64,000 nt of DNA from Candidatus Thiodiazotropha endoloripes. Its GTDB lineage: Bacteria; Pseudomonadota; Gammaproteobacteria; Chromatiales; Chromatiaceae. Position numbers and translations under genes: made by a program. The stretch lies in assembly GCF_001708965.1 (NCBI RefSeq), contig NZ_LVJW01000007.1, forward strand, positions 124,001 through 188,000, written 5' to 3'. Of this stretch, positions 13,329 through 46,314 are shown one piece after another. The notes under the pieces were generated by a model. The model did not search any database. It saw only the letters and a program-made list of their open reading frames with translations, and was not told the DNA's origin. The first letter of the stretch is position 1. Each line of letters opens with the position of its first letter.

Positions 13329-14770
13329 CCAGGGTGTTTGTTCAGAATATAGGCCATGGTGCGCATCAACCATTGACCAAATTCTCGCGACGGTGTTCCC
13401 GCGATGGAGGGAGAAACCCGATTTTTTTTGCCTCTGATTTTCAATTCCGGCTGTCGGTGCAGCTCTACCATCTCCTTGACTCCAGGAAACTCCGCAGTGG
13501 TCTCACTCATCATAATGCCATCAGCCGGTGCGGCACCACAGAGTCGGGAGGCCAGATTGACACTGTCTCCGACCACGGTGTACTCCAACCGGTCGGGGAT
13601 GCCGATATTGCCGGCCAGCATGACGCCACTGTTGATTCCGATACGAAGCATGATCGGCTCTTTACCCTCTTGCCGGCGCTGTTTGTTGATGTGGCGGACC
13701 AGGGCCTGGATCAGCCAGGCGCAACGAACCGCCTGTTGACCGTGCTCGTTGTCCGCTTCGGGGACGCCAAATAGGATCATAGCACTGTCACCGATGAATT
13801 TATCGACCACACCCCGGCATCGATGAGCCGCATCGGCAATCGCACCAAGATAGAGGTTGAGCAGTGAGGCAACCTCATCCGCCGGCAGATCTTCCGACAG
13901 CTGGGTGAAGCCTACGATGTCACAGAACAATACACTGCCTTCCATCTCCTGATTGGCGAGTCGGGGCTGGGAGAGATTGGAGAGGATCTTGTCCGCGACC
14001 ACCGGTGAGACATAGCGGGAGAGGGCATCCTCCACCTGACGCTTTTCCAGCATCCCGGCCGACATGCGCTCAAAGTGGGCGTAGACCTGTCCGATCTCAT
14101 CCTTTCGGTCTTCATCCCCCTGAGAGATCAGCATCCCCGCTTCCGGTTGATGGCCGGCCTGGGCCAGCAGAGTAATCGGCCGGCTAAGTCGTTTGCTCAG
14201 CACGTAGGAGAGAATTGCGGCGATCAGGATCAGGCCGATGGTGGCGAAACTGATAATACGAATGGTCCGTTTCTGGTTGCGGTCGAGAAAGGCCCGATCC
14301 AGGGTGATCACGGCGTGACCGGCGATAACATCCCGGAAATGGATCGGGCTGAAGAAGGTAATCGCCGGATACCGTCTGTTATCCTCATCCCGCCAGGACC
14401 AGATCATCGGGGTGAGCTCATCCGTGGTTGGCAGCTGATGGGGTACATTGCCCGAGATCACCCAGGGCTTTTCTGATGGTACGATGGCCGCACCCACCAC
14501 ATTGTTGTTCTGCGTCTGACGACTGACCAGACCCTGCAGGTTGAACTGGTCATCCGCCAGCAGGGGTTCACTGGCCGAGTGGGCCAGCTGTTCAACCAGT
14601 ACCTCTCCAAATCCCCGGACTTCGCGCATATGAAAGCTGGTCTGCTGGGTGATCAGAAACCAGCCGAGAATGCCCATGACCATGGTGATCAGGGTACCGA
14701 TATAGATCGTCCACTTGATGGAGATCGGAACAGGTGCTTTACGAAATAGTTGAACCAGCCAGTTTAACAA
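13325..14770 (-). CDS. Membrane class III adenylate/guanylate cyclase with HAMP domain
   Basis: 481 residues. A membrane helix near 18-41, an extracytoplasmic sensor region to about 170, a second helix near 172-192 and a HAMP domain precede a class III cyclase domain at about 265-440. The metal-binding Asp residues are present in FCDIVGFT and FIGDSAMILFG, and the transition-state Asn and Arg in DSVNLASRL, so the enzyme should be active. It probably makes cAMP, but substrate choice is not certain from sequence. Its stop overlaps the start of a TPR lipoprotein gene. The C-terminal 40 residues beyond the cyclase domain are not assigned. Confidence 0.88.
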   Translation of the reverse strand: MLNWLVQLFRKAPVPISIKWTIYIGTLITMVMGILGWFLITQQTSFHMREVRGFGEVLVEQLAHSASEPLLADDQFNLQGLVSRQTQNNNVVGAAIVPSEKPWVISGNVPHQLPTTDELTPMIWSWRDEDNRRYPAITFFSPIHFRDVIAGHAVITLDRAFLDRNQKRTIRIISFATIGLILIAAILSYVLSKRLSRPITLLAQAGHQPEAGMLISQGDEDRKDEIGQVYAHFERMSAGMLEKRQVEDALSRYVSPVVADKILSNLSQPRLANQEMEGSVLFCDIVGFTQLSEDLPADEVASLLNLYLGAIADAAHRCRGVVDKFIGDSAMILFGVPEADNEHGQQAVRCAWLIQALVRHINKQRRQEGKEPIMLRIGINSGVMLAGNIGIPDRLEYTVVGDSVNLASRLCGAAPADGIMMSETTAEFPGVKEMVELHRQPELKIRGKKNRVSPSIAGTPSREFGQWLMRTMAYILNKHPG

Positions 14771-14933: not shown

Positions 14934-15743
14934 TCAGGCGACCCGTTTGATGTGTTGAATCAGTCTCGCCGAGATCTCCTCGATCGACATGGAGGTGGTC
15001 TCGAGATAGGGGATGTTATAGTGCTTGAACAGGCCCTCAGCCAGTTTGACCTCCATTTTACACTGTTCAAGAGAGGAGTAGCGCCGGTCAGGGCGTCTCT
15101 CCTGGCGGATACGTTGCAATTGATGTGGGTCGATGGTCAGACCGTACAGCTTATCCTTGTAGCCGTTGAGGATCTTCGGCAATAGATCACTGTGCAGATC
15201 GTCATCGGTGAGTGGGTAGTTGGCAGCCAGGACACTGTGTTGCAGGCCAAGAAAGAGGCAGGTAGGGGTTTTGCCACTACGGGAGACACCGATCAGAATC
15301 AGGTCAGCTGTCTCATAGTTCTTGGTAATTGCACCATCGTCATTGTTGAGGGCGAAATTGACCGCGTGGATACGCTGGTCATAGGCACGACCGTTCTTGG
15401 TGGTATGGAATTGCCCCAGGGCATGGGAGGAGGGAAGACCCAGCTCCTGTTCCAGGCGGGTCGTGAAAGTTTCGAAGAAATCCATGACCGGCACATCCAG
15501 GGTTTTGAAATAGTCCCGGATCGAGGGATCCACCAGGGTGGTGAAGACAATTGGTTTCTGTCCCGACTCCATGGTTGTCTGGTTGATCCGCTCAGCCACC
15601 CGGCGGGCCTTTTCCAGACCGTCTATGAAAGGCCAATGCACGGTCTCATATTCAAAGCTGTCGAACTGGCTCAGCAGGGAGCGCCCCATCGCTTCGACAG
15701 TGATACCGGTATGGTCAGCCAGAAAATAGACAGTACGTTTCAT
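14934..15743 (-). CDS. ppsR: PEP synthase regulatory protein (bifunctional kinase/pyrophosphorylase)
   Basis: 269 residues starting MKRTVYFLADHTGITVEAMG, with the P-loop-like block GVSRSGKTPTCLFL, typical of the DUF299 family. The enzyme inactivates PEP synthase by ADP-dependent phosphorylation of a Thr next to the catalytic His and reactivates it by phosphorolysis. It follows ppsA on the same strand 69 bases downstream, with a strong hairpin between, so it is probably made from the same transcript at a lower level. In E. coli the two genes are divergent. Confidence 0.94.
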   Translation of the reverse strand: MKRTVYFLADHTGITVEAMGRSLLSQFDSFEYETVHWPFIDGLEKARRVAERINQTTMESGQKPIVFTTLVDPSIRDYFKTLDVPVMDFFETFTTRLEQELGLPSSHALGQFHTTKNGRAYDQRIHAVNFALNNDDGAITKNYETADLILIGVSRSGKTPTCLFLGLQHSVLAANYPLTDDDLHSDLLPKILNGYKDKLYGLTIDPHQLQRIRQERRPDRRYSSLEQCKMEVKLAEGLFKHYNIPYLETTSMSIEEISARLIQHIKRVA

Positions 15744-15781
15744 TGGGATTTCAGTTGACTCTAACTTGTGTCCGAAGGGCG

Positions 15782-15806
15782 GCGGGGAGACCGGTAGTCT
15801 CCCCGC
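15782..15806. terminator. Intercistronic hairpin between ppsA and ppsR
   Basis: Perfect 10-base arms GCGGGGAGAC and GTCTCCCCGC with a 5-base loop. There is no T-run on the minus strand, so it is more likely a partial terminator or 3' stabiliser of ppsA mRNA than a full terminator. Confidence 0.6.
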
Positions 15807-15812
15807 GACACT

Positions 15813-18224
15813 TTAGTCACTCAAGCCGGTCAACAGCCTCCAGGTATCGACAACCGTGTCAGGGTTCAGGGATACACTGGTGATCTTCTGTTCTACCAGC
15901 CATTCGGCAAGATCGGGATAATCGGATGGCCCCTGGCCACAGATACCGACATACTTACCCGCCTTGTTACAGGCCTGTATGGCCATGCTGAGCATCCGTT
16001 TGACGGCCGGATTTCGCTCATCGAAGCTATTGGCAACCAGCCCGGAATCCCGGTCCAGCCCCAGGGTTAACTGAGTCATGTCGTTGGAGCCGATGGAGAA
16101 GCCGTCAAAGTACTCAAGGAACTCTTCCGCCAAAACGGCATTGGATGGCAGTTCGCACATCATGATCACACGCAGATCTTTTTCACCCCGTTTCAGACCA
16201 TTCTGTTCCAGCAGGCTGATCACGCCGGAGGCTTCGTCCAGGGTGCGGACAAAGGGGATCATGATCTCCACATTGCTGAAGCCCATCTCTTCCCGAACCC
16301 GTTTCAGGGCGCGGCACTCCAACTCAAAGCAGGGTCTGAAGCTCTCGGAGATATAGCGCGAAGCACCACGGAAACCGATCATCGGATTCTCTTCGGAGGG
16401 CTCATAGAGCTTGCCACCGATCAGGTTGGCGTACTCATTCGACTTGAAGTCGGACATGCGTACGATGACCGGCTTGCCCTCGAATGCGGCCGCCAGGGTG
16501 GAGATACCTTCCACCAGCTTCTCCACATAGAACTCCACCGGATCGTCGTAACCGTTCATCTGGCTCTGTGCGGCCGCCTTGATATCCTCAGGCAGCTTAT
16601 CGAACTCCATCAGTGCGCGGGGATGAACACCGATGGTGGTGTTGATGATGAACTCCAGTCGGGCCAGGCCGATACCCCCATTCGGGATCCGGCTGAAGGC
16701 GAAGGCGCGACTCGGATTGGCCACATTCATCATGATCTTGGCCGGTGCTTCCGGCAGACTGGTGACATCACCCTGGGTGACTGAGTACTTCAGCAGGCCC
16801 TCATAGATGAAACCGTCATCACCTTCCGCACAGGAGACCGTCACCTCCTGGCCTTCCTGAAGTTTTTCAGTCGCGTCATGACAACCGACCACGGCCGGGA
16901 TACCCAGTTCCCGGGCGATGATCGCCGCGTGGCAGGTACGGCCGCCCCGGTTGGTGACAATCGCCGAAGCTTTTTTCATCACCGGCTCCCAGTCGGGATC
17001 GGTCATGTCGGTGACCAGCACATCGCCGGCCTCAACTTTGGCCATCTCACTGGCATCGGCAATCACCTTCGCGACACCACTGCCGATCCGCTGACCGATG
17101 GCACGGCCCTGAACCAGCACGTTGCCGTCTTTCTGTTCCAGCTTGAAACGCTCGACGGAGGTGGTATCGACCCGGCTCTCAACGGTTTCTGGACGCGCCT
17201 GCAGGATGTAGAGCTGACCGTCGGTGCCGTCCAGACCCCATTCGATATCCATTGGACGCTGGTAGTGTTTCTCGATGGTAATCGCCATTTGGGCCAGGCT
17301 CTCGACCTGCTCACTGGTGAGTGAGAATTTGGCTTGATCCTGTGGCTCTACATCGACCGTCTTGACCCGATCCTCACCTTCCTGGCCGTAGACCATCTTG
17401 ATCGCCTTGCTGCCCAGGTTGCGGCGCAGAATGGCTGGTCTGCCAGCTTCCACATTGCCTTTGTGGACATAGAATTCATCGGGATTGACAGCACCCTGTA
17501 CCACAGTCTCACCCAGACCATAGGAGCTGGTGATGAATACCGCATCTTTGAAACCGGATTCGGTGTCGAGAGTGAACATGACCCCGGCTGAACCTACATC
17601 GGAGCGCACCATCCGTTGGATGCCTGCAGAGAGTGCCACATCCTCATGGGCAAATCCCTGGTGAACACGGTAGGAGATGGCCCGGTCGTTATACAGAGAG
17701 GCGAATACCTCTTTGATCGCGATCAGAACGTCTTCCAGACCCTGCACGTTGAGAAAGGTCTCCTGCTGACCGGCAAAAGAGGCATCGGGGAGATCTTCCG
17801 CAGTCGCTGAGGAGCGCACAGCCACGGAGGGCACTTCTGCGGCATCGCCTACCAGCTTTCTGTAAGCGGCGGTAACCGCGTTCTCCAACTCTTCCGGAAA
17901 CTCGGCTTCGACCACCCATTCACGGACTGTCTTGCCCGCTTCCGCAAGTGCCGTGACATCACTCACATCGAGTTGCTGTAACAGCGGGTCGATTCGCTCT
18001 GCAAGGCGGTTGTGTCGCAGAAACTCACGATAGGCGTGGGCTGTGGTGGCAAAGCCGCCGGGAACGGAGACGCCCGCATCGGCAAGACCACTGATCATCT
18101 CGCCAAGCGATGCGTTCTTGCCGCCGACCTGATCGACATCATGCATTTTCAGGTTTTCAAACCAGATTATTTGTTCATTCACCGCTTGCCCTCGGCTTTT
18201 GGATTGATTGGATGGATCAGTCAT
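15813..18224 (-). CDS. ppsA: Phosphoenolpyruvate synthase (pyruvate, water dikinase)
   Basis: 803 residues, the usual size. It has an N-terminal ATP-grasp domain ([32 protein letters not shown]), a central phosphohistidine domain ([20 protein letters not shown], with the catalytic His) and a C-terminal PEP/pyruvate barrel ([31 protein letters not shown]). It converts pyruvate and ATP to PEP, AMP and phosphate. The ATG at 18222-18224 follows CAGAGG at the right distance; the in-frame extension to 18323 overlaps the upstream small gene and looks non-coding. It lies 4 bases after the Cys-rich protein gene at the end of the rnf block, linking POR-made pyruvate to gluconeogenesis. Confidence 0.95.
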
Positions 18225-18228
18225 TGTT

Positions 18229-18426
18229 TTAACCTCTGAGGTGGTCTCCTTGACGTTGGCAGCTGTTTCCGCTGCACAGACAGCTTTTACCACAGCCTGT
18301 GCCCTCTTCCTTATGAGGACCAAACTCAGGATGTAGTTTAGAAAAGCGTCGGGTGATGGACTGGATGATCAACCAGCCCAACAACAGAATCGGTATCACG
18401 GTCATGGCGATGAGAAAGTCGAGCAT
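18229..18426 (-). CDS. Small Cys-rich membrane protein (NqrM/DUF539-like architecture)
   Basis: 65 residues: one N-terminal membrane helix ([20 protein letters not shown]) and a C-terminal tail with [13 protein letters not shown], five cysteines in short spacing. It is packed between rnfA (4 bases upstream) and ppsA (4 bases downstream). NqrM, a small membrane protein with a Cys cluster, is needed to assemble the related Na+-NQR. By layout and position this protein may serve Rnf maturation (Fe or Fe-S delivery), but that is inference and the match to NqrM itself is not firm. The ATG at 18424-18426 was chosen as the start of the helix. Confidence 0.75.
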
Positions 18427-18430
18427 CGAA

Positions 18431-19012
18431 TCAACCTCCGAGTCCGGCAAAGCCCATGAACGAGAGTGAAAGCAGACCACCCAGCATCAGACTCACTGCG
18501 GCACCCTGGGTGATGCTCGGCATGGTCGAAAGCTCCAGCTTCTCCCGCAGACCGGCCATCAGCAGGATTGCCAGGATAAAACCAACGCCGGCGCCCAGTG
18601 CATAGACCAGGGATTGCAGGAAACTGTACTCTTTGAATGTCTGGAACAGGGCCAGACCGAGGATTGCACAGTTGGTGGTGATCAACGGCAGAAAGATGCC
18701 CAATGAGCGAAACAGGGCAGGGGTAAATTTTTTCAGGGCCATTTCCACCAATTGTACGGCACTGGCGATCACGGCGATATAGGCGATCAGGCGCAGGAAT
18801 TCGATCTCAAAGGCCACCAGGACCTCATTGATCAGAAACGCGCAGACTGAACTGACCAACATCACAAACAGGGTTGCCAGGCCCATTGGCAGGGCCGTAT
18901 TGATCTTTCCCGAGACACCGAGGAACGGGCACAGGCCGAGAAACAGGGCAAGTACAAAGTTATTTGCCAGTACAGCGTTGAGAAATATAAAGCTTAGGGT
19001 TTCTGTCGCCAT
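18431..19012 (-). CDS. rnfA: Rnf electron transport complex subunit RnfA
   Basis: 193 residues, identical in length to E. coli RsxA. It begins MATETLSFIFLNAVLANNFV and is almost wholly hydrophobic with six predicted helices. The blocks LANNFVLALFLGLCPFLGV and TNCAILGLALF carry the conserved Cys residues that ligate the intramembrane Fe-S cluster shared with RnfE. The in-frame upstream TTG at 19051 adds an atypical leader, so the ATG was preferred. It lies between rnfE and the small Cys-rich protein. Confidence 0.95.
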   Translation of the reverse strand: MATETLSFIFLNAVLANNFVLALFLGLCPFLGVSGKINTALPMGLATLFVMLVSSVCAFLINEVLVAFEIEFLRLIAYIAVIASAVQLVEMALKKFTPALFRSLGIFLPLITTNCAILGLALFQTFKEYSFLQSLVYALGAGVGFILAILLMAGLREKLELSTMPSITQGAAVSLMLGGLLSLSFMGFAGLGG

Positions 19013-19097
19013 CGTGGTCACTTTATGATGTTTAAGGAGAACAGGCTGCAACGACCTGTGGGGATCCGAACGAAATTCACCTGTGAGATCCTGATGT

Positions 19098-19742
19098 TCA
19101 TGATTCTGCCGCCGGATCCAGTTCAGTCTCGGATTTCCGCTGCTTCAGCCACTCAAACAGCAGCAGCCAGGCACCCAGGACCAGAAAGCCGCCGGCAGGC
19201 AGTACCATCACTACCCAGGGTTCGAATCTGGGGCCGAACAGGTCGATGCCGAACAGGCTGCCGGCACCCAGGATCTCGCGCACCACACCGAGACAGAGCA
19301 GGGCCAGGGTAAATCCCAGTCCCATGCCGGTGGCGTTGATGATCGACTTCAATGGCGGATTCCTGGAAGAGTAGGCCTCGGCCCGACCCAGTATCATGCA
19401 GTTGGCAACGATCAGCTGGATAAAAGCACCCAGCGCATTGTAGAGGTCCAGGGAGATCGCCTGGATGGTGTAGTCGACAATGGTGACGAAGGTGGCGATG
19501 ATGACGATATAGGTGGCGATGCGCACCTGCTTGGGTATGCTGTTGCGAAGCAGCGAGATTAAAGTTCCCGAGGCGAGCAGTACGAAAAGTGTGGCAACAC
19601 CCATCGCCAGGGCATTGATCGCCGAGTTGGTCACTGCCAGTACCGGGCACATGCCCAGCAGCATGACAAACACAGGGTTTTCACGCCACAAACCTTCACT
19701 GAAGGTATCCCAGGTGATGGTGTTGTCTTGTTTTTTCGCCAT
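19098..19742 (-). CDS. rnfE: Rnf electron transport complex subunit RnfE
   Basis: 214 residues with the RnfE/RsxE pattern: ENPVFVMLLGMCPVLAVTNS and IVANCMILGRAEAYSSRN, and six membrane helices. With RnfA it forms the inverted pair of subunits in the membrane and shares the Fe-S cluster. Its start codon is only about 10 bases from the end of a MITE-like element, and the bases in between lack a good Shine-Dalgarno sequence, so its translation or transcription may be altered compared with an intact rnfGE junction. Confidence 0.95.
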   Translation of the reverse strand: MAKKQDNTITWDTFSEGLWRENPVFVMLLGMCPVLAVTNSAINALAMGVATLFVLLASGTLISLLRNSIPKQVRIATYIVIIATFVTIVDYTIQAISLDLYNALGAFIQLIVANCMILGRAEAYSSRNPPLKSIINATGMGLGFTLALLCLGVVREILGAGSLFGIDLFGPRFEPWVVMVLPAGGFLVLGAWLLLFEWLKQRKSETELDPAAES

Positions 19743-19752
19743 GGTTATCTGT

Positions 19753-20021
19753 TAGGGTCTGTTAACATGAATCCAATTGGCCCTGCTGTGACTATTTTTT
19801 CGCCCAGCAAGGCAGAATGAGCGAAGTGTCGTCACTCGACATGAGCGAATGATAACGCCGCTGGGCGGAAAAACAGCCTCAGCCCTTCGGGTTGCCCCTG
19901 AAAAAGCGCCACTCGGCGTTGCTCGTCGTTCATTTGGAATCACCAAACCTCTCTCCTCGCGCCTTGATTGGCGCTTTTTCAGGGGCAACAGGGCCAATTG
20001 GATTCGTGTTAACAGGCCCTA
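19753..20021. mobile_element. MITE-like element with 32-bp terminal inverted repeats, copy A
   Basis: A 269-base element between rnfG and rnfE. Left end 19754-19785 and right end 19989-20020 are inverted repeats with two mismatches in 32 bases (AGGGYCTGTTAACAYGAATC onward). TA lies on each side. Inside are two further inverted repeats: CGCCCAGC with GCTGGGCG, and a perfect 21-base pair of arms at 19891-19911 and 19969-19989. There is no transposase. It shares its ends and the internal CCAGCAAGGCA with the copy at 46215-46312. The flanking TA pairs would fit TA-targeting transposases of the IS630/mariner type, which is inference. Confidence 0.85.
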
Positions 20022-20093
20022 GTTCAAATCAGTTATTGTCAATCAATTGGACGCTGTCTTACTTTGCGCATGATCAATTAAATCAGGCATTAT

Positions 20094-20822
20094 TCACTGT
20101 GTCCCGCTGTCCGGAGTTTCAGGCTCGCTTGGCGGCGGTGGCGCATTGCGTATTACATCGATGTGCGGCATCAGCTGGGGCAGCAAGAGCTGAGTAGATT
20201 GATTCAGCGCTTTGCCGACTGCCTGTGAGGAGATGGTCGCACCGGATATGGCGTCGATCTCCCAGGGGTGCTGTTTGGTGCCCGCTTTGACGGTCACGAT
20301 CGCGTTTGCCAGTTTATCCCCGCTTGCATTCAGCTTTGCCTCCAGTGCATCGAAGTTGGCGACAAAATTGGCATCAGTGATGATCTTGTCACCCAGTCCC
20401 GGGGTTTCGGCCAGTTTCAGCACTTTGATACCACGGATGCATTCACAATCCGGATCATAGCCATACAGCAGGTGGATCATATCCGCATAGCCCTGAGCTC
20501 CGGCCTTGGCGGCGACACCTTTCAGGTTGCCCTGCTGATCGTAACCCGCATAGACCAGTATGCCCTCTGTGGGAGCATCCGGGGTGACTGCCGTCACGGC
20601 CGATTCAGTGACCAGGAAGTCACGCCGGGCAACCGCACCGGGGATTACCTGAAACACCGCAGCCTCGATGGCACGTCGTTGGTTTTCAGCAATGATCGGT
20701 TTGGTCAGCTGGTAGGTGAGTACCACCAGAAAACCCGACAGCATGGCGATTCCCATCAGGGTGCGGATCATCGGGCCCGTCGGGGTGGACGGTTGGATGG
20801 CTTGAGCTTCCGGTGTACTCAT
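20094..20822 (-). CDS. rnfG: Rnf electron transport complex subunit RnfG (FMN-binding)
   Basis: 242 residues: a cytoplasmic N-terminus, one membrane helix near 20-42 and a periplasmic FMN-binding domain. The motif ISGATISSQAV carries the Thr to which FMN is covalently linked. ETPGLGDKI is another family block. The last 20 residues are Pro/Glu-rich and variable. Its ATG overlaps the stop of rnfD by four bases, so the two are translationally coupled. The next gene, rnfE, is separated by a MITE-like element. Confidence 0.94.
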   Translation of the reverse strand: MSTPEAQAIQPSTPTGPMIRTLMGIAMLSGFLVVLTYQLTKPIIAENQRRAIEAAVFQVIPGAVARRDFLVTESAVTAVTPDAPTEGILVYAGYDQQGNLKGVAAKAGAQGYADMIHLLYGYDPDCECIRGIKVLKLAETPGLGDKIITDANFVANFDALEAKLNASGDKLANAIVTVKAGTKQHPWEIDAISGATISSQAVGKALNQSTQLLLPQLMPHIDVIRNAPPPPSEPETPDSGTQ

Positions 20823-21865
20823 TTGCCTGCCCTCTGCTCTCCGAAAACCCTGGGTTGGGTGATCTGATCGATCAATGGTGTGGCGGCATTGCCCAGCAGA
20901 ATGGCATACATTACCCCCTCGGTAAGGCCGCCGAAGAGTCGGATGATCACCGTGATCACGCCAATCATCAAGGCATAGATCACCACCCCCAGGGGGGTAA
21001 CCGGTGAACCGACCATGTCACTGGCCATGAACCAGGCGCCGAGCATCAGGCCGCCGGACAGCACCACGAACAGCGGGTCCGGATATTTGACCGGATCGAT
21101 CATGTAGAAGATTCCGGCGGTCACCGCGGCACCGACCAGGACCAGTACCGGAATGCGCCAATCGAGCATCCGTCTTGCCGCCAGATAGAGACCGCCGGCC
21201 AGAATCAGCAATGCGGATGTTTCACCGGCGGAACCGGCGGTGGTGCCGAGCAGCATATCCAGGTGATCGGTGACCACCCCTTCGAATTTCTGCAATGCCA
21301 ACGGTGTGGCGCCGGAAAAGGCGTCCACGGTGACTTCCGAGACCCAGTCCGTAACCCCAGGGGGTTGCAGAAACGGCGGGGTAAGTGTGGTGGGGATGAA
21401 CTGGCTGAAGCGGCCATCGAAAAATGCCGGGGTCCAGGTGGTGATGGCAACCGGAAAGGCCGCTTGTACGAACGCCCGCCCGATCAGTGCGGGATTCATG
21501 GCGTTCATGCCCAGACCGCCGAACATCGCCTTGCCCAACGCCACACCGACGAAGGCGGCTACCGCACCCATCCAGAGGGGAAAACCCGGTGGCAGGGTCA
21601 TCGCCAGCAGCAGTCCGGTGATGGTGGCAGACCAGTCTCCCAGGGAGCTGGACTTGCCGCTGAGTGCATTGAACAGGCGTTCACTCAACAGACAGGTGAG
21701 GGTGACGACCACCAGCAGTGCCAGTGCACTGATGCCGAATTGCCAGACAGTGAATGCACAGATCGGTAGCAGGGCGTAGACCACATTGCGCATGATAACG
21801 ACCACATCCTCCCCGGCATGGGCATGAGGTGAGGTACGCAGTTCAATGGTGGATTTTTTACTCAT
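20819..21865 (-). CDS. rnfD: Rnf electron transport complex subunit RnfD
   Basis: 348 residues with about nine or ten membrane helices. The motif FSGATPLALQ contains the Thr for covalent FMN. GLGMNAMNPALIGRAFVQAAFP and FMASDMVGSPVTPLG are conserved blocks. It forms the membrane core of the complex together with RnfA, E and G and is a candidate for the ion path. It starts 35 bases after rnfC ends. Confidence 0.95.
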   Translation of the reverse strand: MSKKSTIELRTSPHAHAGEDVVVIMRNVVYALLPICAFTVWQFGISALALLVVVTLTCLLSERLFNALSGKSSSLGDWSATITGLLLAMTLPPGFPLWMGAVAAFVGVALGKAMFGGLGMNAMNPALIGRAFVQAAFPVAITTWTPAFFDGRFSQFIPTTLTPPFLQPPGVTDWVSEVTVDAFSGATPLALQKFEGVVTDHLDMLLGTTAGSAGETSALLILAGGLYLAARRMLDWRIPVLVLVGAAVTAGIFYMIDPVKYPDPLFVVLSGGLMLGAWFMASDMVGSPVTPLGVVIYALMIGVITVIIRLFGGLTEGVMYAILLGNAATPLIDQITQPRVFGEQRAGK

Positions 21866-21900
21866 GTTTGTTTTTCAGCTATACAACATAGGCCTTGGGA

Positions 21901-23241
21901 TTAAGCAGCCTGTTCCCGATTGATCGCTTTGGCGATCCGAAAATACTGCACCAGGGGAATATTCGAGGGGCAGACATAGGAGCAGCAGCCACACTCGAAA
22001 CAGTCGGTCAGATGATAGTCTTCAGCCATCTCCTCATATTTACGCTTCGCTGCCAGTTGTCCGAGCATCGAGGGATTGAGATGCATGGGGCAGGCACTGA
22101 CACAACGGGCACAACGGATACAGGGCCAGATCTTATGGCTCTCATCCTCAATGGAGGGTTCATTGAGTACCAGTAGTCCGGAGGTTCCCTTGGTAATCGG
22201 AGTATCCAGTGCGGAGACGGCTGGCCCCATCATCGGACCACCCAATATAAACTCAGTACGGGCACCCTCGTAACCCACATAGTCGAGAATATATCGGATC
22301 GGGGTACCCAGAGGCACCAGGTAGTTGGCCGGTTTGGCGATGCCGGGTCCTGCGACGGTGATTACCCGCTCGATCAACCCCCGTCCTTTCGGCAGCAGAT
22401 CCCCCAGGCCGGCCAGGGTGCCCACATTATTGACCACCACGCCCACATCGGCGGGCAGGCCTCCGGTGGGTACCTCCCGATCCAGGGCCGATTTGATCAG
22501 CATCTTTTCAGAGCCTTGAGGGTACTTGGTCTCTACCGCCTTGACCTCAACCGGGCTGCCATTGGAGAGGTGGCTCTTAAGCAGTTCCACCGCATCCATT
22601 TTGTTGTCTTCGATGCCGATGATCGCCTTTTCCGTACCGGTAGCGCGCATCGCATAGCGAATTCCACGCAGCAGGGCTTTGGGGTGTTCCAGCATGATCC
22701 TGTGATCACAGGTCAGGTAGGGCTCACATTCACAACCATTGACGATCAGTGTATCGACCTGCTTGTCTTCCGGGATGGCGAGCTTCATATGTGACGGGAA
22801 GGCCGCGCCGCCAAGTCCAACCATGCCGCTATCCTGGATCGCCTGGATGATCTCCTGCGGCGATAGTTCACTCATATCCCGTGGCTGTTCCCACAGCACT
22901 TCCTGGGTCGAGCCCTCATAGACATCGATAAGGATGGCATTGGTCTTCGGACCCTTGGGAGTCGGCATCAATTCGATACCTGCAATTCTGCCTGTGGCAG
23001 GGGCATGCAGAGGAACTGAAAAGTTACCGTCCGCCTTGGCGATCGGTTCACCCCGAACCACCTCCTGGCCTTTGACGACCAGGGGTATCGCCGGTTTACC
23101 GATATGCTGGTCCAGCGGCAATACCAATTGCGGGGGGAAGGGGAGACGGCGGATCGGTTTGTCCGCCGTATCCTTGTGATAGGGCGGATGGATGCCGTGT
23201 GTAAAGCCTTTCTGCCCAAACAGCAGGTTGAACAATCCCAT
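21901..23241 (-). CDS. rnfC: Rnf electron transport complex subunit RnfC
   Basis: 446 residues, compact compared with enterobacterial RsxC, which has a long Ala/Lys-rich tail. An N-terminal barrel-like region is followed by an NADH/FMN-binding part (MVGLGGAAFPSHMKL; NGCECEPYLTCDHRIM) and two [4Fe-4S] motifs (CIRCARCVSACPMHLNP, CFECGCCSYVCPSNIPL). It is the NADH dehydrogenase end of the complex. It follows the POR gene and precedes rnfD, so the oxidoreductase is embedded within the rnf gene order. Confidence 0.95.
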   Translation of the reverse strand: MGLFNLLFGQKGFTHGIHPPYHKDTADKPIRRLPFPPQLVLPLDQHIGKPAIPLVVKGQEVVRGEPIAKADGNFSVPLHAPATGRIAGIELMPTPKGPKTNAILIDVYEGSTQEVLWEQPRDMSELSPQEIIQAIQDSGMVGLGGAAFPSHMKLAIPEDKQVDTLIVNGCECEPYLTCDHRIMLEHPKALLRGIRYAMRATGTEKAIIGIEDNKMDAVELLKSHLSNGSPVEVKAVETKYPQGSEKMLIKSALDREVPTGGLPADVGVVVNNVGTLAGLGDLLPKGRGLIERVITVAGPGIAKPANYLVPLGTPIRYILDYVGYEGARTEFILGGPMMGPAVSALDTPITKGTSGLLVLNEPSIEDESHKIWPCIRCARCVSACPMHLNPSMLGQLAAKRKYEEMAEDYHLTDCFECGCCSYVCPSNIPLVQYFRIAKAINREQAA

Positions 23242-23443
23242 AGTCTCTCTGATCTCGTTTAACCTTAAGTTCGCAATTGAACACGGTGTTGTGGGAAATC
23301 CATTATCGGGTTTGCCATAACAGGATCCATGCGCCGGATCGTAGCCATAAATTGCAGAATCGAGATTTAACCGGCGGAGCCGAAGCTCCGCACACTGTTA
23401 GCCTCATCGACCATGCTGGTTGAGCCAGATGGTCGCCGTGGAT

Positions 23444-26400
23444 TTACTGAAATTTCGCTGCACGTTTGACAAACTTTTCCAGGTCTTTTTCAGTAGCGTT
23501 CCAGGGTGTTCCAGGATGGATGCAGGCAGCCGTACACTTCTCTGCAGCCTTCACGATATCCTTGAACTGACCACCCTTTGGATCGGCGATAATCGCTTTC
23601 TTTTCGTCGTTGTAGGCGAAAATTTTCGGATTGATCTCGATACATTCATCACAGGCTGTACATTCCGGGGTTTCGATCCACACCGGTTCGTAGTCCCCTG
23701 CGGCAGCACCATTGCCTCCTGCCGGGGCATTGCTGCCATTGGCAGAGATCGAACCTGCCAGGGCGTCTGCATTGCCGCTGGCGGCCATTGAGAGCAGGGT
23801 GGAACTGAGGCGGTTGGCCATATCGACTTTGGCCTGATCGACCAGGGCATCCACATCCACTTTGTTCATCTCGCCGGCGACACCCTTCAGCTGACGCCAG
23901 AACTGTCGGCGCTCTTGACAGGATTTGGCGATCTCCTGTGCACAGATGATACGCATAAGACGGTTCTTGCTGTCCACACCCCAGATGTAGGGGAATTTGC
24001 CTTCCCGGTCATCTTCATCCATCTCCAGGAACTCATCCATGGCGACCATGTCATCGTTCCAGGTCTCCGGAGGCGCCATGCGGAACTGCTTACGGAAACG
24101 CCCTTCGGTGACGGCAAAGTCGGCGAAGGTCATGGGCACTTCCAATTTACACGCTTCACCTTTGTCGTCCAGATAGTCGATGGTGTAGGTTGGCCAGTCA
24201 TCGTCCAGTGAAGGATTGCCATCCAGATCGATACAATCTTCGATGGTCTCACCGGCATCCGGATCGTATTTCATCAGTGGGTAGGCTCTCGATTCCACAG
24301 CCATTTTCGACTGTTTGAAAGCGATGTCGTCGCCAACTCCATGCTCCGGAGGACAGACCGCATAGATGTTGAACAGTGCCGGATGGCGGCTGTTCAGGCC
24401 ATCGATGTAGCCTTCCAACAGGTGGGTGGTGTTACTGATGGTGCCCTGCAGGACGTAGGTTGTTCGATGGGCGATGCCGATCAGTGAGACCTCTTTACGA
24501 ATCTCTTCCTTACCTTTCCAAGCCTTACCGTAGGGACTCATATCCGCAACCTGGCCGATGTAGCCGGAGGTACAGGCCTGACCACCGGTGTTGGAGTAGA
24601 CCTGGGTATCGAGTACCAGGACTTTCACCGGCATGCCGGAGGCGAGGACACGGGAGAGGTTTTGGAAACCGATGTCATACATCGCGCCGTCACCACCGAC
24701 CGATACGACCGGCGGACAGAGCAGCCACTCCTCTTCGCTGAACTGCTTCCAGTTGAACTGTTGGAAGAAGGCGCCGTGCTCGACGGCATTGTACTTGCCC
24801 GCCAGTTCCAGTTCCGCTTTACGGATGGTGGCGAAGCCGTTCGCCATCTTACGCATGTGACCTTCGAAAAGCCCCATCGCAACGGATGGGCTGTCCTGGA
24901 ACAGGTGACTGGCCCAGGGGAACGGATAGGGATTGAAGGGGTAAGTGGAGCCCCATACAGAGGTACAACCGGTGGCGTTGACGATACCCATCTCTGCACG
25001 ACCGTTATTGGTCTCACCCTCGGTGTAACGCCATTTCAGATCTCTCAGTTCATCCAGTAACCGGGTTGTGGACTGCAGCCACTCACGATCGATGACCGTC
25101 TTCTCGTGATCACTGTCCAGATTCTCGCTCAGTCCGGAGAGGGTCAGATCACTCTCTTCACTTCCGGACATCGCTTCCGAGATGGCTTTCGAGCTGCTCA
25201 GATCCACACCTTCGGCCAGTTTCAGTCGGATGTGCTGTTCCAGCTGTTCGATCAGTTTGTCGATCTTCTCGATCTGCTGTTTCACCCGTGGCTGCATCAG
25301 GGCCGTGACGGTTGAGGTGAACAGATGGATGATCGTCTTCTCACCACAACCCAGGCAGGCACCGTCGCCACAGGAGAGGGAGTTGTAGTTCTCCTTGTCC
25401 ATCAGCAGGGTCTGCAGTGCGCCGATCTTTTCATCCAGGTCGTCGATGCGGTTGAAGGAAGGATCGCTGGTTGGCAGATCCAGCCAGAATTTCCAGTCGT
25501 CGCGCAGACGGGCAATGGCCGCTTCATCCTGATGGGTAGCCACCAGTGCGTCGTCTTCACAGATGGTGACACACTCCATACAGCCCTTACAGGTGTATGG
25601 ATTGACGGTAATGGAGAAGAGGCCACCGCTGTTTTTGCTCTTCTTCTCCATGTTGTTCCAGTAGGGCTTGGTCACGGAGAACTCGAATTCACCCAAAGCC
25701 TGCAGAAACAGACCGAACTCCTCTTCCAGGGTAGCCCGCGCATCCTCTTCAATCTCGGCGGCACCGATGGTCTCGAGTACGGCCTGATCCAGTACGCTGC
25801 GCACATTGGCCGCTTCGCCGGCCTCTTCGAGCAGTTCACGCAGGCGTTTCTCCACGTTGCGGCTCTCTCTGCGCAGGTATTGGGTCGGACGGCCAGCGGT
25901 TTCGATGCGATTGATCGCAGTGGCGAAAACATCGCTGACCTTGTTGACCAGGCCGGGGATCGCGCTGTCGGGACAGATGGTGTAGCAGTCGCCACAGGCG
26001 GTACAGTTTTCTGCGACCCATTTCGGGTAGTCGAAGCGGATCTGGGTCATGTCGCGGAAGACACCGGTGGAGGCCGGCATCAGTGACAGAGCCTGGTAGG
26101 GGTCGGCCAGATTCTCATTGCCCTTACCGGTGGCATAGAAGCTGCCGGTCTGTTCCCAGAAACGGTGTACATCGGAGATGCCGCCTTCCGCTTCAGGCAG
26201 TTGCTTGAGCATCACCGGCATGCCGATCTCTTTCTTCACCGGCAGCTGAGCGCTGCTGCCGATGACTTTGTTGGTGATCTCATGGATCTCATCGAAACCA
26301 CGGCGAACAACCCGCAGGTTGTCTTCAACCACCCGGCGGCCCTTGCTGCCGAACTTGGCTTCGAGCTGACTCTCGATGGCACTGAACAGTTTCTTCTCGT

Positions 26401-28372
26401 CCAGCCCTGCCATCTCCATCAGCGGAGAGCCGGCAAAGAAGGCGCCCTGGAAAGCGTTACCCTGCATACGCAGTTGCAATTCAGCGTCGGAGGCCTCCTC
26501 TTTGGCGATCTTGAAACCATCCACATAGAAGACATGGATCTCGTTGTCGATGATCTGCTGCTGCATCCAGCGGGGGAAGGATTCCCATACCTCATCCGCC
26601 GAATCCAGGTACGACTGGATGATCAGGGTACCGCCCTGTTTCAGACCGGCCAATGGGTTGGAGTGACTGAATACGTTCGGGTCCGGGCTCAAGACCACAT
26701 CCACATAGTGATACTCACAGTTCAGCGGAATCGGTGTCGGTGCTGCAGAGAGGTAGTAGGTGGTGGGCTGACCCTTCTTTTCGGAACCATATTTCGGATT
26801 CGCTTTGATCTCGTAACCGAGCAGATCATAGAGGGTCATGACCAGGTTCTTGCCGGTGGTGATGGCGCCCCAGCCACCTACCGAGTGCATTCTTACGGTA
26901 ATCGAGCCTTCCGGCATCAGGTTCGGGTTTTCGGAACCACGCAGTGCCATATCACCGATGTTCGGATAGGCTTCGAGCAGTTTCTGGATATGGATCTCCT
27001 GCTTGGGCGTATCCGCATCGCGTACGAAATCGATACCCAGGTAGAAGAACTTACGCTGACTGCCGTCAGGCAGCATATTCTCAACTGCGGCGATCAGCGC
27101 CTCAGGTTGCAGGTCACGGGAACCCAGGCCATAGGCGCCGGAATAGAGGTGAGGGGCATCGGCAAAGCTGCTGTAGCATTCATATTTTGCATAGGGCAGT
27201 TCCAGTTTGCCCGCTTTTGCCTGACCGTTTTCGATACATTTGGAGACCACCGAGCGGACTTCACGCATCAGTGGCAGATCTTCCGCCAGCGGCTGGTCGG
27301 TACGCTCCAGTACGCAGACACCCTTTTTACCCTTCAGGATCTGACCCAGCAGATCGCCCGGGAAGGGACGGAACATGGTGATATCGACCACGCCGATCTT
27401 CAGTTTACGGGTCTTTTCCAGATAGTCGGCCAGACCGTGTGCCTGTACGATCATTGAGCCCATACCGACGATCAGATAGTCTGCCTTCTCTGTTTTATAG
27501 GAGCCGATACGCTCGTAGCGGCGACCGGTCAGCTGGTAATACTCTTCCATCGCCTGATCCGCGATCTCCGGGATATGCTGGAAGAAGTAGGGCCGTTGCG
27601 CAGCGGTGGTCTGCATATAGGCATCCTGGTTCTGCACCGAGCCTGAGAGCATGGGATTGTCCACATCCCAGATGGCCGGTACCCGGCGACGGGTCTCACC
27701 GAACAGCAGCTTCTGTGCCGGGGTGGGGCATTCGATTTCATCATCCGGACGACCCAGATACTCAGCGATCAGCTCCCGTTCAGGCACCTGCAGGGGTTCG
27801 ATCAGATGGGTTGTCAGAAAGCCGTCCTGGGCTACAGCCGCTGGAGTCAGCGACAGCTCAGCGATCTTGCGGCCGATCAGGTTCAGGTCGGCGGCACCCT
27901 GAGCGTTGTTGGCGAATACTTGGAAAAAGCCGGTATCGTCAATACAGTGGAAATCGTCATGGCCGCAGTGTACGTTGAGCGACGCCTTGGTGATTGCCCG
28001 GCAGCCAATATTCAGCACATAGGGGAGGCGCTTACCAACTGCCGCATAGAGGGATTCATGCATGAATGCGATGCCCTGGGCAGAGGAGAAGTTGGTGGCG
28101 CGCAAGCCGGTCATGGACATACCTGCGGTAACCGCGGCGGCCGCATGCTCCGACTCCGGTTCGATAAAGATCAGTGACCGATCAGAAACATTGACATGCC
28201 CTTTGGCGGTCTCTTCGGCCCAATATTCACCCATTTGGGTAGATGGGGTGATGGGATATGCACCAGCGGCGTCAGAGGCTTCCCTCTCACACATAATGAC
28301 TGCCCCGTTACCGTCCATTGCCATACGGATACCAGGGTATTTGAAGCTCTTCTCTTCTTTCTTACCGAACAT
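23444..28372 (-). CDS. Large pyruvate:ferredoxin (flavodoxin) oxidoreductase with fused C-terminal ferredoxin
   Basis: 1642 residues, about 450 longer than ordinary single-chain POR/NifJ (about 1,170-1,200). Order: pyrimidine-binding domain I (about 1-240, YPITPSTQMGEYWAEE), domain II, gamma/KOR domain (SVGGWGAITTGKNLV), two [4Fe-4S] motifs (CTACGDCYTICPDSAIP; CKGCMECVTICEDDA), CGDGACLGCGEK, and the TPP domain (VGGDGAMYDIGFQNLSRV; DTQVYSNTGGQACTSG). Extra helical segments separate the two cluster motifs and follow CGEK, and the last ~90 residues form a ferredoxin (CTACDECIEINPK ... CTAACIHPG). It interconverts pyruvate and acetyl-CoA plus CO2 with ferredoxin. It sits between rnfB and rnfC. 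Another 2-oxoacid as substrate cannot be excluded. Confidence 0.92.
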   Translation of the reverse strand: MFGKKEEKSFKYPGIRMAMDGNGAVIMCEREASDAAGAYPITPSTQMGEYWAEETAKGHVNVSDRSLIFIEPESEHAAAAVTAGMSMTGLRATNFSSAQGIAFMHESLYAAVGKRLPYVLNIGCRAITKASLNVHCGHDDFHCIDDTGFFQVFANNAQGAADLNLIGRKIAELSLTPAAVAQDGFLTTHLIEPLQVPERELIAEYLGRPDDEIECPTPAQKLLFGETRRRVPAIWDVDNPMLSGSVQNQDAYMQTTAAQRPYFFQHIPEIADQAMEEYYQLTGRRYERIGSYKTEKADYLIVGMGSMIVQAHGLADYLEKTRKLKIGVVDITMFRPFPGDLLGQILKGKKGVCVLERTDQPLAEDLPLMREVRSVVSKCIENGQAKAGKLELPYAKYECYSSFADAPHLYSGAYGLGSRDLQPEALIAAVENMLPDGSQRKFFYLGIDFVRDADTPKQEIHIQKLLEAYPNIGDMALRGSENPNLMPEGSITVRMHSVGGWGAITTGKNLVMTLYDLLGYEIKANPKYGSEKKGQPTTYYLSAAPTPIPLNCEYHYVDVVLSPDPNVFSHSNPLAGLKQGGTLIIQSYLDSADEVWESFPRWMQQQIIDNEIHVFYVDGFKIAKEEASDAELQLRMQGNAFQGAFFAGSPLMEMAGLDEKKLFSAIESQLEAKFGSKGRRVVEDNLRVVRRGFDEIHEITNKVIGSSAQLPVKKEIGMPVMLKQLPEAEGGISDVHRFWEQTGSFYATGKGNENLADPYQALSLMPASTGVFRDMTQIRFDYPKWVAENCTACGDCYTICPDSAIPGLVNKVSDVFATAINRIETAGRPTQYLRRESRNVEKRLRELLEEAGEAANVRSVLDQAVLETIGAAEIEEDARATLEEEFGLFLQALGEFEFSVTKPYWNNMEKKSKNSGGLFSITVNPYTCKGCMECVTICEDDALVATHQDEAAIARLRDDWKFWLDLPTSDPSFNRIDDLDEKIGALQTLLMDKENYNSLSCGDGACLGCGEKTIIHLFTSTVTALMQPRVKQQIEKIDKLIEQLEQHIRLKLAEGVDLSSSKAISEAMSGSEESDLTLSGLSENLDSDHEKTVIDREWLQSTTRLLDELRDLKWRYTEGETNNGRAEMGIVNATGCTSVWGSTYPFNPYPFPWASHLFQDSPSVAMGLFEGHMRKMANGFATIRKAELELAGKYNAVEHGAFFQQFNWKQFSEEEWLLCPPVVSVGGDGAMYDIGFQNLSRVLASGMPVKVLVLDTQVYSNTGGQACTSGYIGQVADMSPYGKAWKGKEEIRKEVSLIGIAHRTTYVLQGTISNTTHLLEGYIDGLNSRHPALFNIYAVCPPEHGVGDDIAFKQSKMAVESRAYPLMKYDPDAGETIEDCIDLDGNPSLDDDWPTYTIDYLDDKGEACKLEVPMTFADFAVTEGRFRKQFRMAPPETWNDDMVAMDEFLEMDEDDREGKFPYIWGVDSKNRLMRIICAQEIAKSCQERRQFWRQLKGVAGEMNKVDVDALVDQAKVDMANRLSSTLLSMAASGNADALAGSISANGSNAPAGGNGAAAGDYEPVWIETPECTACDECIEINPKIFAYNDEKKAIIADPKGGQFKDIVKAAEKCTAACIHPGTPWNATEKDLEKFVKRAAKFQ

Positions 28373-28478
28373 GGAAACTTCTCTTTGCTAGGTTTGCAAT
28401 TTACTTTCCGCCACTATATCAATGATGATCTGTATAGAGGAAACAGAAAGCGTAGGCTTATGGTTTTCACTGCCAACA

Positions 28479-29357
28479 TCAGATAGGCAGTGCTTCTTTA
28501 CGTACTATGCGCTTGGCTTGTTGTCCTTTGAGGACTCCCAGTGTTTCATCAAGCCAAACAATTGCCCCGGTCGGGCAACGCTCAGTAGCAATAGGGGAGG
28601 CTAAACTAATCTTGTTATAGTCGATCACAGCCAAATTGTCTTGAATACTAATCAATCCTTCCGGGGAGTCCTTGACACATCTTTCGCAGGCGGTGCAGGC
28701 GACTTCGCAATCGTTTTCTGCGGTATCACCGTGCTCCAGATTTTTACAGGCCACCCACAATCGATGGGCAGCGTCCTGAATTGAGAACAGATCCTTGGGA
28801 CAGATATCGACGCAATCGCCACAGGCTGTGCATTTTGCGTTGTCCACGATGGGCAATCCGTTGAGGTCCATGGTGATCGCCTCGAAATCGCACACATCGG
28901 CGCAATCGGCCAGACCGATACAGCCCCATGTACAGCTTTTTGGGCCACCGGAGACAACGGCGGCTGCACGACAGCTCTCCAACCCTTTATACTGGGCACG
29001 CATACGGGCGACATGATTGCCTCCGGCACAGGCCAGACGGGCTACCCGTTTCACCACGTCACCACTCTCCACGCCCAGGTAGTCGGCGATGTCCTCGATC
29101 GCCTCGGCATTGCTGACGGTACATTGTGCGGGGGTAACCTCGCCGGAGATCAGTGCCTCGGCGAAGGGTCGGCATCCGGCACTGCCACAGGCGCCGCAAT
29201 TGGTGGCGGGCAGCATGCCTTCGAGATCATCGATTCGGGGGTCTTCAAAGACCCAGAGTTTTTTGTTGGCGATTACCAGCATGGATGAGAGCAACAGTCC
29301 AAGAATGCCCATGAAGAGGATAGCGGTCGTGACGTTTAGTGCGATCTCAATATCCAT
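28479..29357 (-). CDS. rnfB: Rnf electron transport complex subunit RnfB (long form)
   Basis: 292 residues: a membrane anchor (about 8-32), then the RnfB/Fe-S motif NCGACGSAGCRPFAEAL with a fourth Cys (PAQC), followed by several ferredoxin-type Cys groups (CTWGCIGLADCADVC, CTACGDCVDICPKD, CEVACTACERC). This exceeds the ~190 residues and two ferredoxin clusters of E. coli RsxB and resembles long RnfB proteins with extra clusters. RnfB is the ferredoxin-side entry or exit point. It is the first gene of the block, 106 bases ahead of POR. ATG at 29357 was chosen over an in-frame TTG two codons upstream. Confidence 0.9.
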   Translation of the reverse strand: MDIEIALNVTTAILFMGILGLLLSSMLVIANKKLWVFEDPRIDDLEGMLPATNCGACGSAGCRPFAEALISGEVTPAQCTVSNAEAIEDIADYLGVESGDVVKRVARLACAGGNHVARMRAQYKGLESCRAAAVVSGGPKSCTWGCIGLADCADVCDFEAITMDLNGLPIVDNAKCTACGDCVDICPKDLFSIQDAAHRLWVACKNLEHGDTAENDCEVACTACERCVKDSPEGLISIQDNLAVIDYNKISLASPIATERCPTGAIVWLDETLGVLKGQQAKRIVRKEALPI

Positions 29358-30546: not shown

Positions 30547-31188
30547 ATGAAGCTGATACTTTTAGGTGCGCCCGGTGCGGGCAAGGGCACAGTTGCCAAG
30601 GAATTGACCAAGCTGGACGGTTCAGTACAGATTTCTACCGGTGACATCTTACGTGGTGCGGTCCAGGCCGGTACAGATCTGGGCAAGCAGGCAGAGGCCT
30701 TCATGAAGGCGGGTGATCTGGTCCCTGATGATCTGATCATGGGTATCATGGAGCAGCGTCTGCAGGAGCCGGATTGTGAGAAGGGATTTCTGTTGGACGG
30801 TTTTCCCCGGACTATTCCTCAGGCTGAGGCCCTGGGCGAACTGCTGAAGAAAATCGATGTGGATCTCGACTTCGCTGTAGAGATCGATGTGCCCAGGGAG
30901 GTGATCCTGGATCGTCTGACCACCCGCAGAACCTGCGAAGACTGCGGTGCCATCTACAATGTCAAAAGCATGCCGACAAAAGTTGAGGGTGTCTGCGACA
31001 AATGTGGTGGCAAAGTCGTACAGCGGGATGACGAGACGGAAGAGGCGATCTCAAACCGTCTCGACGTCTATCAGGAAAAGACCGCGCCGCTGGTCGGTTA
31101 CTACAGTAATGAAGAGATGTTGCTGACCGTCAGCGCGACCTCCAGTGAGGCGGTAGTGAATGCCATTCAGGAGAGATTGAACGGCTGA
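30547..31188 (+). CDS. adk: Adenylate kinase
   Basis: 213 residues. The P-loop is GAPGAGKGT, the AMP-binding region ISTGDILRGAV, then LLDGFPRTIPQAEAL. The long LID domain carries a zinc-type CEDCGAIYN ... CDKCGG four-Cys motif, unlike the Cys-free LID of E. coli. It interconverts ATP plus AMP with 2 ADP. CAGGAG precedes the ATG at a good distance and a strong terminator follows, so it is probably monocistronic. Confidence 0.97.
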   Translation: MKLILLGAPGAGKGTVAKELTKLDGSVQISTGDILRGAVQAGTDLGKQAEAFMKAGDLVPDDLIMGIMEQRLQEPDCEKGFLLDGFPRTIPQAEALGELLKKIDVDLDFAVEIDVPREVILDRLTTRRTCEDCGAIYNVKSMPTKVEGVCDKCGGKVVQRDDETEEAISNRLDVYQEKTAPLVGYYSNEEMLLTVSATSSEAVVNAIQERLNG

Positions 31189-46191: not shown

Positions 46192-46214
46192 AATTCAGAT
46201 TCCAGGTTGTTTCT

Positions 46215-46312
46215 TAGGGCCTGTTAACACTAATCCACTATGCCCGTTGGGACTTTTTTTTGTGTCCAGCAAGGCACAACAGCGCCTATTGGATTAGTGT
46301 TAACAGGCCCTA
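46215..46312. mobile_element. MITE-like element, copy B
   Basis: A 98-base element with ends AGGGCCTGTTAACACTAATCCA and their exact reverse complement, flanked by TA. The centre has a T-run and CCAGCAAGGCA, shared with copy A at 19753-20021. It lies between the arsR stop and the arsC start. No coding capacity. Confidence 0.88.
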
Positions 46313-46314
46313 GC

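Follow-up and report, generated by a model that had tools for sequence, protein, structure and literature searches.

Why should the gene for a pyruvate:ferredoxin oxidoreductase (POR) lie inside the operon of an Rnf ion pump? The question is raised by a 64,000-nucleotide stretch of the genome of the sulfur-oxidising clam symbiont Candidatus Thiodiazotropha endoloripes (contig NZ_LVJW01000007.1, positions 124,001 to 188,000; hereafter the window), in which ten minus-strand genes run from rnfB through a POR gene and rnfCDGEA to ppsA and ppsR, encoding phosphoenolpyruvate (PEP) synthase and its regulator. The position of the POR gene among the rnf genes suggests that both work as one wired machine. 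We assign a probability of roughly 55% to the reading that the block encodes a dedicated Rnf with its own giant POR, directly wired to it and used here mainly for uphill pyruvate synthesis.

A giant POR among the rnf genes of the window

All ten genes listed by the initial annotation were present, in the order and at the coordinates it had given; start positions were refined for rnfA, the Cys-rich gene, ppsA and rnfB.

28479..29357, minus strand: rnfB, long form, 292 aa, first gene of the block (TIGR01944, 82.7 bits; cut-off 68.7)
23444..28372, minus strand: giant single-chain POR (type I), 1642 aa
21901..23241, minus strand: rnfC, 446 aa (TIGR01945, 509 bits; cut-off 246), NADH/FMN loop GLGGAAFP
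20819..21865, minus strand: rnfD, 348 aa (TIGR01946, 290.8 bits; cut-off 207), flavin site SGAT
20094..20822, minus strand: rnfG, 242 aa (TIGR01947, 103 bits; cut-off 102), flavin site SGAT
19098..19742, minus strand: rnfE, 214 aa (TIGR01948, 231.7 bits; cut-off 213.4)
18431..19012, minus strand: rnfA, 193 aa (TIGR01943, 231.7 bits; cut-off 229.3)
18229..18426, minus strand: gene for a Cys-rich small protein, 65 aa, with one hydrophobic helix and a four-Cys C-terminal cluster
15813..18224, minus strand: ppsA, PEP synthase, 803 aa (NF005057, 1254.8 bits; cut-off 598)
14934..15743, minus strand: ppsR, PEP synthase regulator, 269 aa (NF049928, 351.3 bits; cut-off 350)

All six Rnf subunits (A, B, C, D, E and G) scored above their NCBIfam subfamily cut-offs, and the motifs that we take to mark the flavin, [2Fe-2S] and NADH sites were all found in the window Rnf. 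From rnfB to ppsR, the successive gaps measured 106, 202, 35, an overlap of 4, 351, 85, 4, 4 and 69 bases, which bears out the 4-base spacing claimed for rnfA, the Cys-rich gene and ppsA; the 351-base gap between rnfG and rnfE is the site of an element resembling a miniature inverted-repeat transposable element (MITE). No minus-strand terminator-like site was found inside any gap between two block genes. The region held somewhat more terminator-like sites than the shuffled expectation (18 versus 13.2) and no excess of promoter-like sites (8 versus 9.6), the promoter scan being uninformative.

The initial annotation had correctly recognised a member of the POR superfamily but had missed that, with 1642 aa, it is a giant and not an ordinary PFOR of ~1200 aa; the ordinary NifJ of the same genome has 1191 aa. 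The Pfam models POR_N, PFOR_II and POR matched with 156.4, 48.5 and 98.1 bits (cut-offs 27, 27 and 27.4), and the TIGR02176 equivalog model gave 402 bits, below its cut-off of 911; judged by such scores, the protein is a superfamily member outside the curated single-chain PFOR family. It differs from known PFORs (NifJ; 6cin, 1b0p, 7plm) in its length, in insertions at residues 827-914 and 1024-1125 and in a 151-residue tail with a ferredoxin, and type I giants differ further by lying within an rnf operon at every locus with room for rnfC. The added parts of the window protein are as follows.

25631..25894, minus strand: insertions between the two [4Fe-4S] motifs of the dicluster domain (within residues 827-914; alignment against own NifJ)
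24998..25303, minus strand: 102-residue, largely helical insertion in the thiamine pyrophosphate (TPP) domain (residues 1024-1125; alignment against own NifJ)
23444..23680, minus strand: tethered single-cluster ferredoxin at the C-terminus (residues 1565-1642; Fer4_13, 28.2 bits, cut-off 24.5), preceded by an Ala/Gly-rich linker

A structure search with a model of residues 760-1642 returned no match that accounts for the insertions or the tail, most aligner rows covering model residues 2-738 and the insertions and tail being barely covered. Among the named matches listed, the nearest to this POR, at 97% identity, come from Ca. T. taylori (L173) and from Ca. T. sp. 'RUGA' (L175).

The giant, with three internal [4Fe-4S] clusters and a C-terminally tethered ferredoxin, would most likely dock on the cytoplasmic face of Rnf, at RnfB/RnfC, and the tethered ferredoxin would shuttle between the POR dicluster and RnfB. 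Electrons would pass between pyruvate/acetyl-CoA and NAD(H) within a single assembly; their transfer would be coupled to the ion gradient and would not rely on free ferredoxin. In the uphill direction, probably the main one here, NADH and ion-motive force would reduce the tethered ferredoxin, POR would make pyruvate by carboxylating acetyl-CoA, and the pyruvate would be converted to PEP by PpsA under the control of its switch PpsR; a likely use would be the mobilisation of acetate or polyhydroxyalkanoate (PHA) carbon. Ferredoxin-dependent carboxylations are usually thought to need a soluble pool of low-potential ferredoxin.

Conservation of the rnf-POR order

To describe the distribution of this unit, we used sampled genomes (195 of the order, 370 of the class and 397 of the phylum) together with scanned genomes of named species. 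Set A comprised 62 loci from the sampled genomes, covering part of the type I genomes seen there, and set B comprised 80 named contigs from several phyla, the best 80 of at least 593 matching stretches. The two sets partly overlap (L201 and L283, for instance, represent the same contig) and contain many rows from the same genus, so that their counts are not independent events; the gene-order tally left aside L053 and the contig-end fragments L112-L116.

In set A, rnfB lay directly upstream of the giant POR at 61 of 62 loci (at L134 it follows rnfA), rnfC lay directly downstream at all 55 loci with room for it, and rnfCDGEA was complete at 52/52. The corresponding counts in set B were 58/75, 65/65 and 53/53. 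Seventeen set B loci were tallied without upstream rnfB, 14 of them labelled Bacteroidota or its classes; eight of the 14 (L229, L231, L236, L242, L246, L248, L250 and L252) carry rnfB 1.1-1.5 kb after rnfA, and the other six have no rnfB within the stretch examined. L244 and L245 entered this tally only through extra POR-like pieces, rnfB being present there, and L222 has no rnfB upstream of the giant. In view of these tallies the order is not due to chance. The link between Rnf and POR drawn by the initial annotation is strongly supported far beyond the window genome, and the unit is far older than that genome. Of the rnfB-POR-rnfC-ppsA order whose conservation in relatives had been proposed as a check, the first three genes are mostly kept and ppsA occurs at only part of the loci.

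The catalytic residues are kept as well. YPITPS, the active-site Glu, Arg, GDG and YSNTGGQ were intact in all 138 full-length type I proteins, a count that draws on the overlapping rows of both sets and includes L227, missed by three patterns through conservative variants. With the same proviso for L227, all 138 retained what we take, from PFOR, to be the TPP- and pyruvate-site residues and the Cys ligands of three [4Fe-4S] clusters. The ferredoxin tail matched a strict pattern in 131/138, and at least four Cys occurred in the last 100 residues in 138/138. Strict Rnf motifs were found in sets A and B, respectively, in 53/58 and 63/67 (RnfC loop), 52/53 and 53/58 (RnfG) and 48/55 and 51/63 (RnfD, [ST]GAT); the misses inspected were variants such as SAAT and AGAT, and the RnfD of L054, a type II locus (see below), reads TQAS. 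Pairwise distances across 64 loci correlated between POR and five Rnf subunits with r of 0.77-0.88, compared with 0.66-0.84 among the Rnf subunits themselves, and none of 200 permutations gave a POR-Rnf correlation as high. By this measure, POR acts as if it were a further Rnf subunit; simple common descent would produce such a correlation too.

Type I giants occur in purple sulfur bacteria (Marichromatium, Thiocapsa, Allochromatium and Ectothiorhodospira), sulfur-oxidising symbionts, Rhodocyclaceae, Thiobacillus, Rhodoferax and Shewanella atlantica, in the Bacteroidota genera Algoriphagus, Persicobacter, Flagellimonas and Allomuricauda, and in metagenome-assembled genomes deposited under the labels Acidobacteria, Verrucomicrobia and Myxococcota. 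Megaplasmids of Persicobacter psychrovividus (Bacteroidota) and Gemmatirosa kalamazoonensis (Gemmatimonadota) carry the same rnf-POR order. At five Bacteroidota loci (L229, L247, L248, L250 and L252), a gene of ~120-140 aa precedes POR, and the one tested matched HEPN just below the Pfam cut-off.

One instance had been noted before: the genome paper on the Solemya velum symbiont places POR between rnfB2 and rnfC2 (PMC4287430), and this rnf2 cluster (L201/L283) is the same locus type as the window block. The paper's passages on rnf2 contain nothing on the giant architecture, the cross-phylum range, the small Cys-rich protein or type II. In this assembly, rnfB and the POR linker of the symbiont are each split across frames, and the two genes may be decaying or carry sequencing errors. 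In its passage on rnf, the Allochromatium vinosum genome paper reports three rnf clusters, whose role it describes as entirely unclear (PMC3368242), and a discussion of rnf and kor genes within reductive tricarboxylic acid cycle clusters does not, in the part concerned, treat the rnf-POR unit (PMC6315080). Searches of the open-access literature, which leaves subscription papers mostly outside, listed no other account of the giant, the cross-phylum linkage, the dead sister described below or the small protein. The widespread operon and the retained degenerate sister make it possible to test whether a carbon-fixing enzyme docks directly on an ion pump, and cultured bacteria carry the unit (Marichromatium, Thiocapsa, Allochromatium, Shewanella and Algoriphagus).

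Sister giants and the proposed coupling to Rnf

A second kind of giant, type II (~1500-1580 aa, 28% identical to type I), is also located after rnfB. Scanning of the 195 order genomes found it in 38, including six of the window's genus, and not in the window genome. The YPITPS, GDG, YSNTGGQ and proximal-cluster Cys patterns were present in 0/10 type II proteins and the active-site Glu was also lost, and the eight dicluster Cys were retained in 10/10 (L119 was missed by one strict dicluster pattern, its aligned Cys being present). Type II as a second active POR is ruled out by the lost catalytic motifs. A dead enzyme whose wire has been retained beside rnfB is best explained if proteins derived from POR serve as a scaffold and wire between an oxidoreductase and Rnf, a hint that the incomplete type II loci weaken.

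Ahead of rnfB, seven of the nine readable type II loci (L054, L056, L057, L059, L142, L143 and L280) carry korA-korB-X; korA and X are fragmented at L280, and korAB was not found in the stretch examined at L058 and L060. The korAB genes specify a 2-oxoacid:acceptor oxidoreductase, which was tested in L056 with the alpha model scoring above its cut-off and the beta model below. Protein X (~830 aa) has a degenerate TPP domain and, in 6/7, an intact POR-type ferredoxin tail.

We regard it as possible, at somewhat less than even odds, that types I and II together represent a hitherto unrecognised class of ion-pump supercomplexes in which 2-oxoacid oxidoreductases are wired into a dedicated Rnf via a POR-derived scaffold. 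In type I, one giant may be catalyst, wire and tethered ferredoxin at once, and type II may be a dead-POR scaffold and wire with KorAB plugged in as catalyst. Our estimate was lowered slightly because the full rnfCDGEA set stands beside the type II giant at only 7/10 loci (L054-L057, L142, L143 and L280). If such a class exists, aerobic and microaerobic bacteria would be able to drive low-potential carboxylations by ion-motive force without exposed free ferredoxin.

Linkage to Rnf is specific: no complete rnf set was found, in the stretches examined, beside ordinary or split PORs or beside a third kind of giant, type III. The window genome has two further POR_N genes; its ordinary NifJ (L270) has no adjoining rnf in the stretch examined, and split PORs (L139-L141 and L271-L277) showed no complete rnf set in theirs, the exceptions being a reversed rnfB-like match 7.7 kb off at L139 and a short Fe-S rnfC match at L273. 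Type III giants (L061-L067 and L278-L279; ~1600-1730 aa, ~36% identical) retain the catalytic motifs together with a CxxCxxC tail, and no complete rnf operon was found in the stretches examined. In three genomes the type II rnf sets appear to be dispersed or partial; in one of them, that of L058 (G016), rnfE/A-like genes adjoin a type III giant (L066). A quick tree placed types I, II and III apart, but no ancestry is drawn from it because the branch separating type I had a support value of just 60 and long branches come together.

The window genome also contains two further, ordinary rnfABCDGE clusters, to which the block Rnf is 27-51% identical. With two other sets present, the block Rnf as the general Rnf of this genome is ruled out. 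The window set resembles the known Rnf (RnfABCDGE) complex in all six subunits and in its cofactor motifs, and differs from it in the order B-POR-C-D-G-E-A and in its long RnfB.

Co-regulation alone might account for the gene order: Rnf would make or draw on a common pool of soluble ferredoxin, of which the giant would be one customer whose gene lies in the operon by chance. A shared soluble ferredoxin is the standard arrangement in other organisms with Rnf and PFOR, and the two additional Rnf sets and the sometimes incomplete type II operons are consistent with such an arrangement. Against it stand the tethered ferredoxin, the rnfC side, which is without exception in 120 type I loci (two overlapping sets), and the retention by rnfB of a degenerate POR-like protein in type II, which a customer enzyme would not explain; we consider this alternative improbable.

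Still more doubtful, in our judgement, is that the giant is chiefly an oxygen-hardened POR whose insertions and tail shield its clusters in aerobes, the Rnf link being secondary. An extra domain shields a cluster in the Desulfovibrio africanus PFOR, and the giant is present in Algoriphagus and Flagellimonas, which are usually described as aerobic. A thiol peroxidase-like gene also lies between POR and rnfC at four loci. Shielding would leave the constant rnf neighbourhood and type II unexplained, and it is compatible with a directly wired Rnf and POR. The thiol peroxidase-like genes (L092:9940-10437, L093:10529-11026, L174:14005-14502 and L181:13941-14447) hint at oxidative protection of the complex.

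Direction of carbon flow and smaller features of the block

The initial annotation had proposed a pyruvate-synthase module for carbon assimilation, with ppsA and ppsR as parts of it. Both genes proved to be real and recurrent neighbours, but optional ones: ppsA follows the unit at 22/52 set A loci (17 from the window's genus) and at 6/53 in set B, and ppsR at 19/52 and 3/53. These counts rule out ppsA as a core component. The gene is nevertheless found again beyond the genus, in further genera and families (L051, L069, L092, L125, L126, L174, L207, L215 and L219), which favours the synthesis direction. In Kentron symbionts, according to the passages on PFOR, the enzyme is highly expressed and is interpreted as a pyruvate synthase in PHA use (PMC6593406), and in Endoriftia PFOR isoforms shift with substrate supply (PMC11636981); neither PFOR is identifiable as the giant from those parts of the papers.

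The same wired assembly could instead run downhill at low oxygen, oxidising pyruvate to acetyl-CoA and CO2 and passing the electrons through Rnf to NAD with ion pumping. The chemistry is reversible, ppsA is not adjacent at 30/52 and 47/53 loci, and the passage on the Solemya symbiont takes the rnf-POR linkage as pyruvate oxidation (PMC4287430). An FNR-like gene, which could take electrons away, is found near 28 of 71 loci; LysR (18/71), ApbE (7/71) and thiol peroxidase (4/71) genes are the other recurring neighbours named, and the FNR-like ortholog of the window genome is unlinked to the block. The genes that come next in the window and its genus are gluconeogenic, which counts against oxidation, as does, more weakly, the finding that no acetate-forming or fermentation gene was recognised among the neighbour clusters occurring in at least 4/71 loci, five of which were identified by Pfam and the rest assigned by eye to rnf, POR or pps or left unassigned. 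We judge downhill operation to be rather unlikely.

Several observations weigh against direct wiring and uphill use, which we nevertheless prefer. Gene order can reflect co-regulation without contact, the POR-Rnf complex is predicted from genes, and the model, confined to residues 760-1642, reveals no docking face. Type II linkage is looser than that of type I: L058 has rnfC only, L060 is without rnfC, L059 has none of the five genes within 7.7 kb, and at L054, L055 and L280 the giant and rnfC stand 2.2-2.6 kb apart, with other sequence between them. Some catalytic residues also linger in type II (aligned Arg125 in 8/10, Asp1228 in 3/10), genes resembling rnfE and rnfA occur ~3 kb from the type III giant of L066, and a weak match to rnfC was seen at L064. 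With regard to direction, most loci outside the genus are without ppsA, so that uphill synthesis cannot be general; the frequency of the FNR-like gene makes soluble electron routes plausible, and the Solemya paper's reading points the other way.

A small hydrophobic Cys-rich open reading frame (ORF) follows rnfA at 114/120 type I and II loci under a loose rule (40-130 aa, a hydrophobic stretch, at least three Cys, near the rnfA stop) applied with no shuffled control; for contrast, both ordinary rnf clusters in the window genome were read by eye. Twenty-two aligned members have four invariant Cys in common; their few NCBIfam matches were weak and had unrelated names (best E 0.0007), and the window protein had no match in Pfam or NCBIfam. 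The family resembles NqrM (PF04400) in its N-terminal membrane helix, its short Cys-rich tail and the position of its gene at the end of a pump operon (PMC12174285). According to that review, which in the relevant passage names NqrM for NQR only, NQR seems to require NqrM for its intramembrane [2Fe-2S] site. By this analogy, the small protein probably helps to assemble the iron-sulfur site that RnfA/RnfE hold within the membrane, and it would be a candidate for the builder of that site inside Rnf. The small protein was not assigned to NqrM itself: with PF04400, neither the window protein (E up to 10) nor its genome gave a match, and the SCGG motif is absent. A profile comparison with hhalign gave a probability of 88.7, over 15 columns only.

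Beyond the block, adk (30547-31188) adjoins it divergently, as in the same-genus loci whose stretch extends that far; adenylate kinase would recycle the AMP made by PpsA, and the adjacency could be coincidence. The gene past ppsR (13325-14770) encodes an apparent membrane sensor with a possible nucleotide-cyclase domain, on weak NCBIfam matches only.

The MITE proposed between rnfG and rnfE was confirmed as a short, multi-copy element with inverted ends.

19753..20023, no strand assigned: MITE-like repeat with inverted ends, 271 bases, between rnfG and rnfE

It contains no ORF of at least 130 aa, matches itself in reverse and has 54 matches in the genome (its own places included), among them four other near-full-length copies at 97, 89, 88 and 88% identity. 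In same-genus relatives, the rnfG and rnfE matches are spaced by 4-176 bases (86-87 in the closest) and the element is absent, indicating a recent insertion. Short partial copies of the repeat lie elsewhere in the window, at 46205-46317 and 51775-51809.

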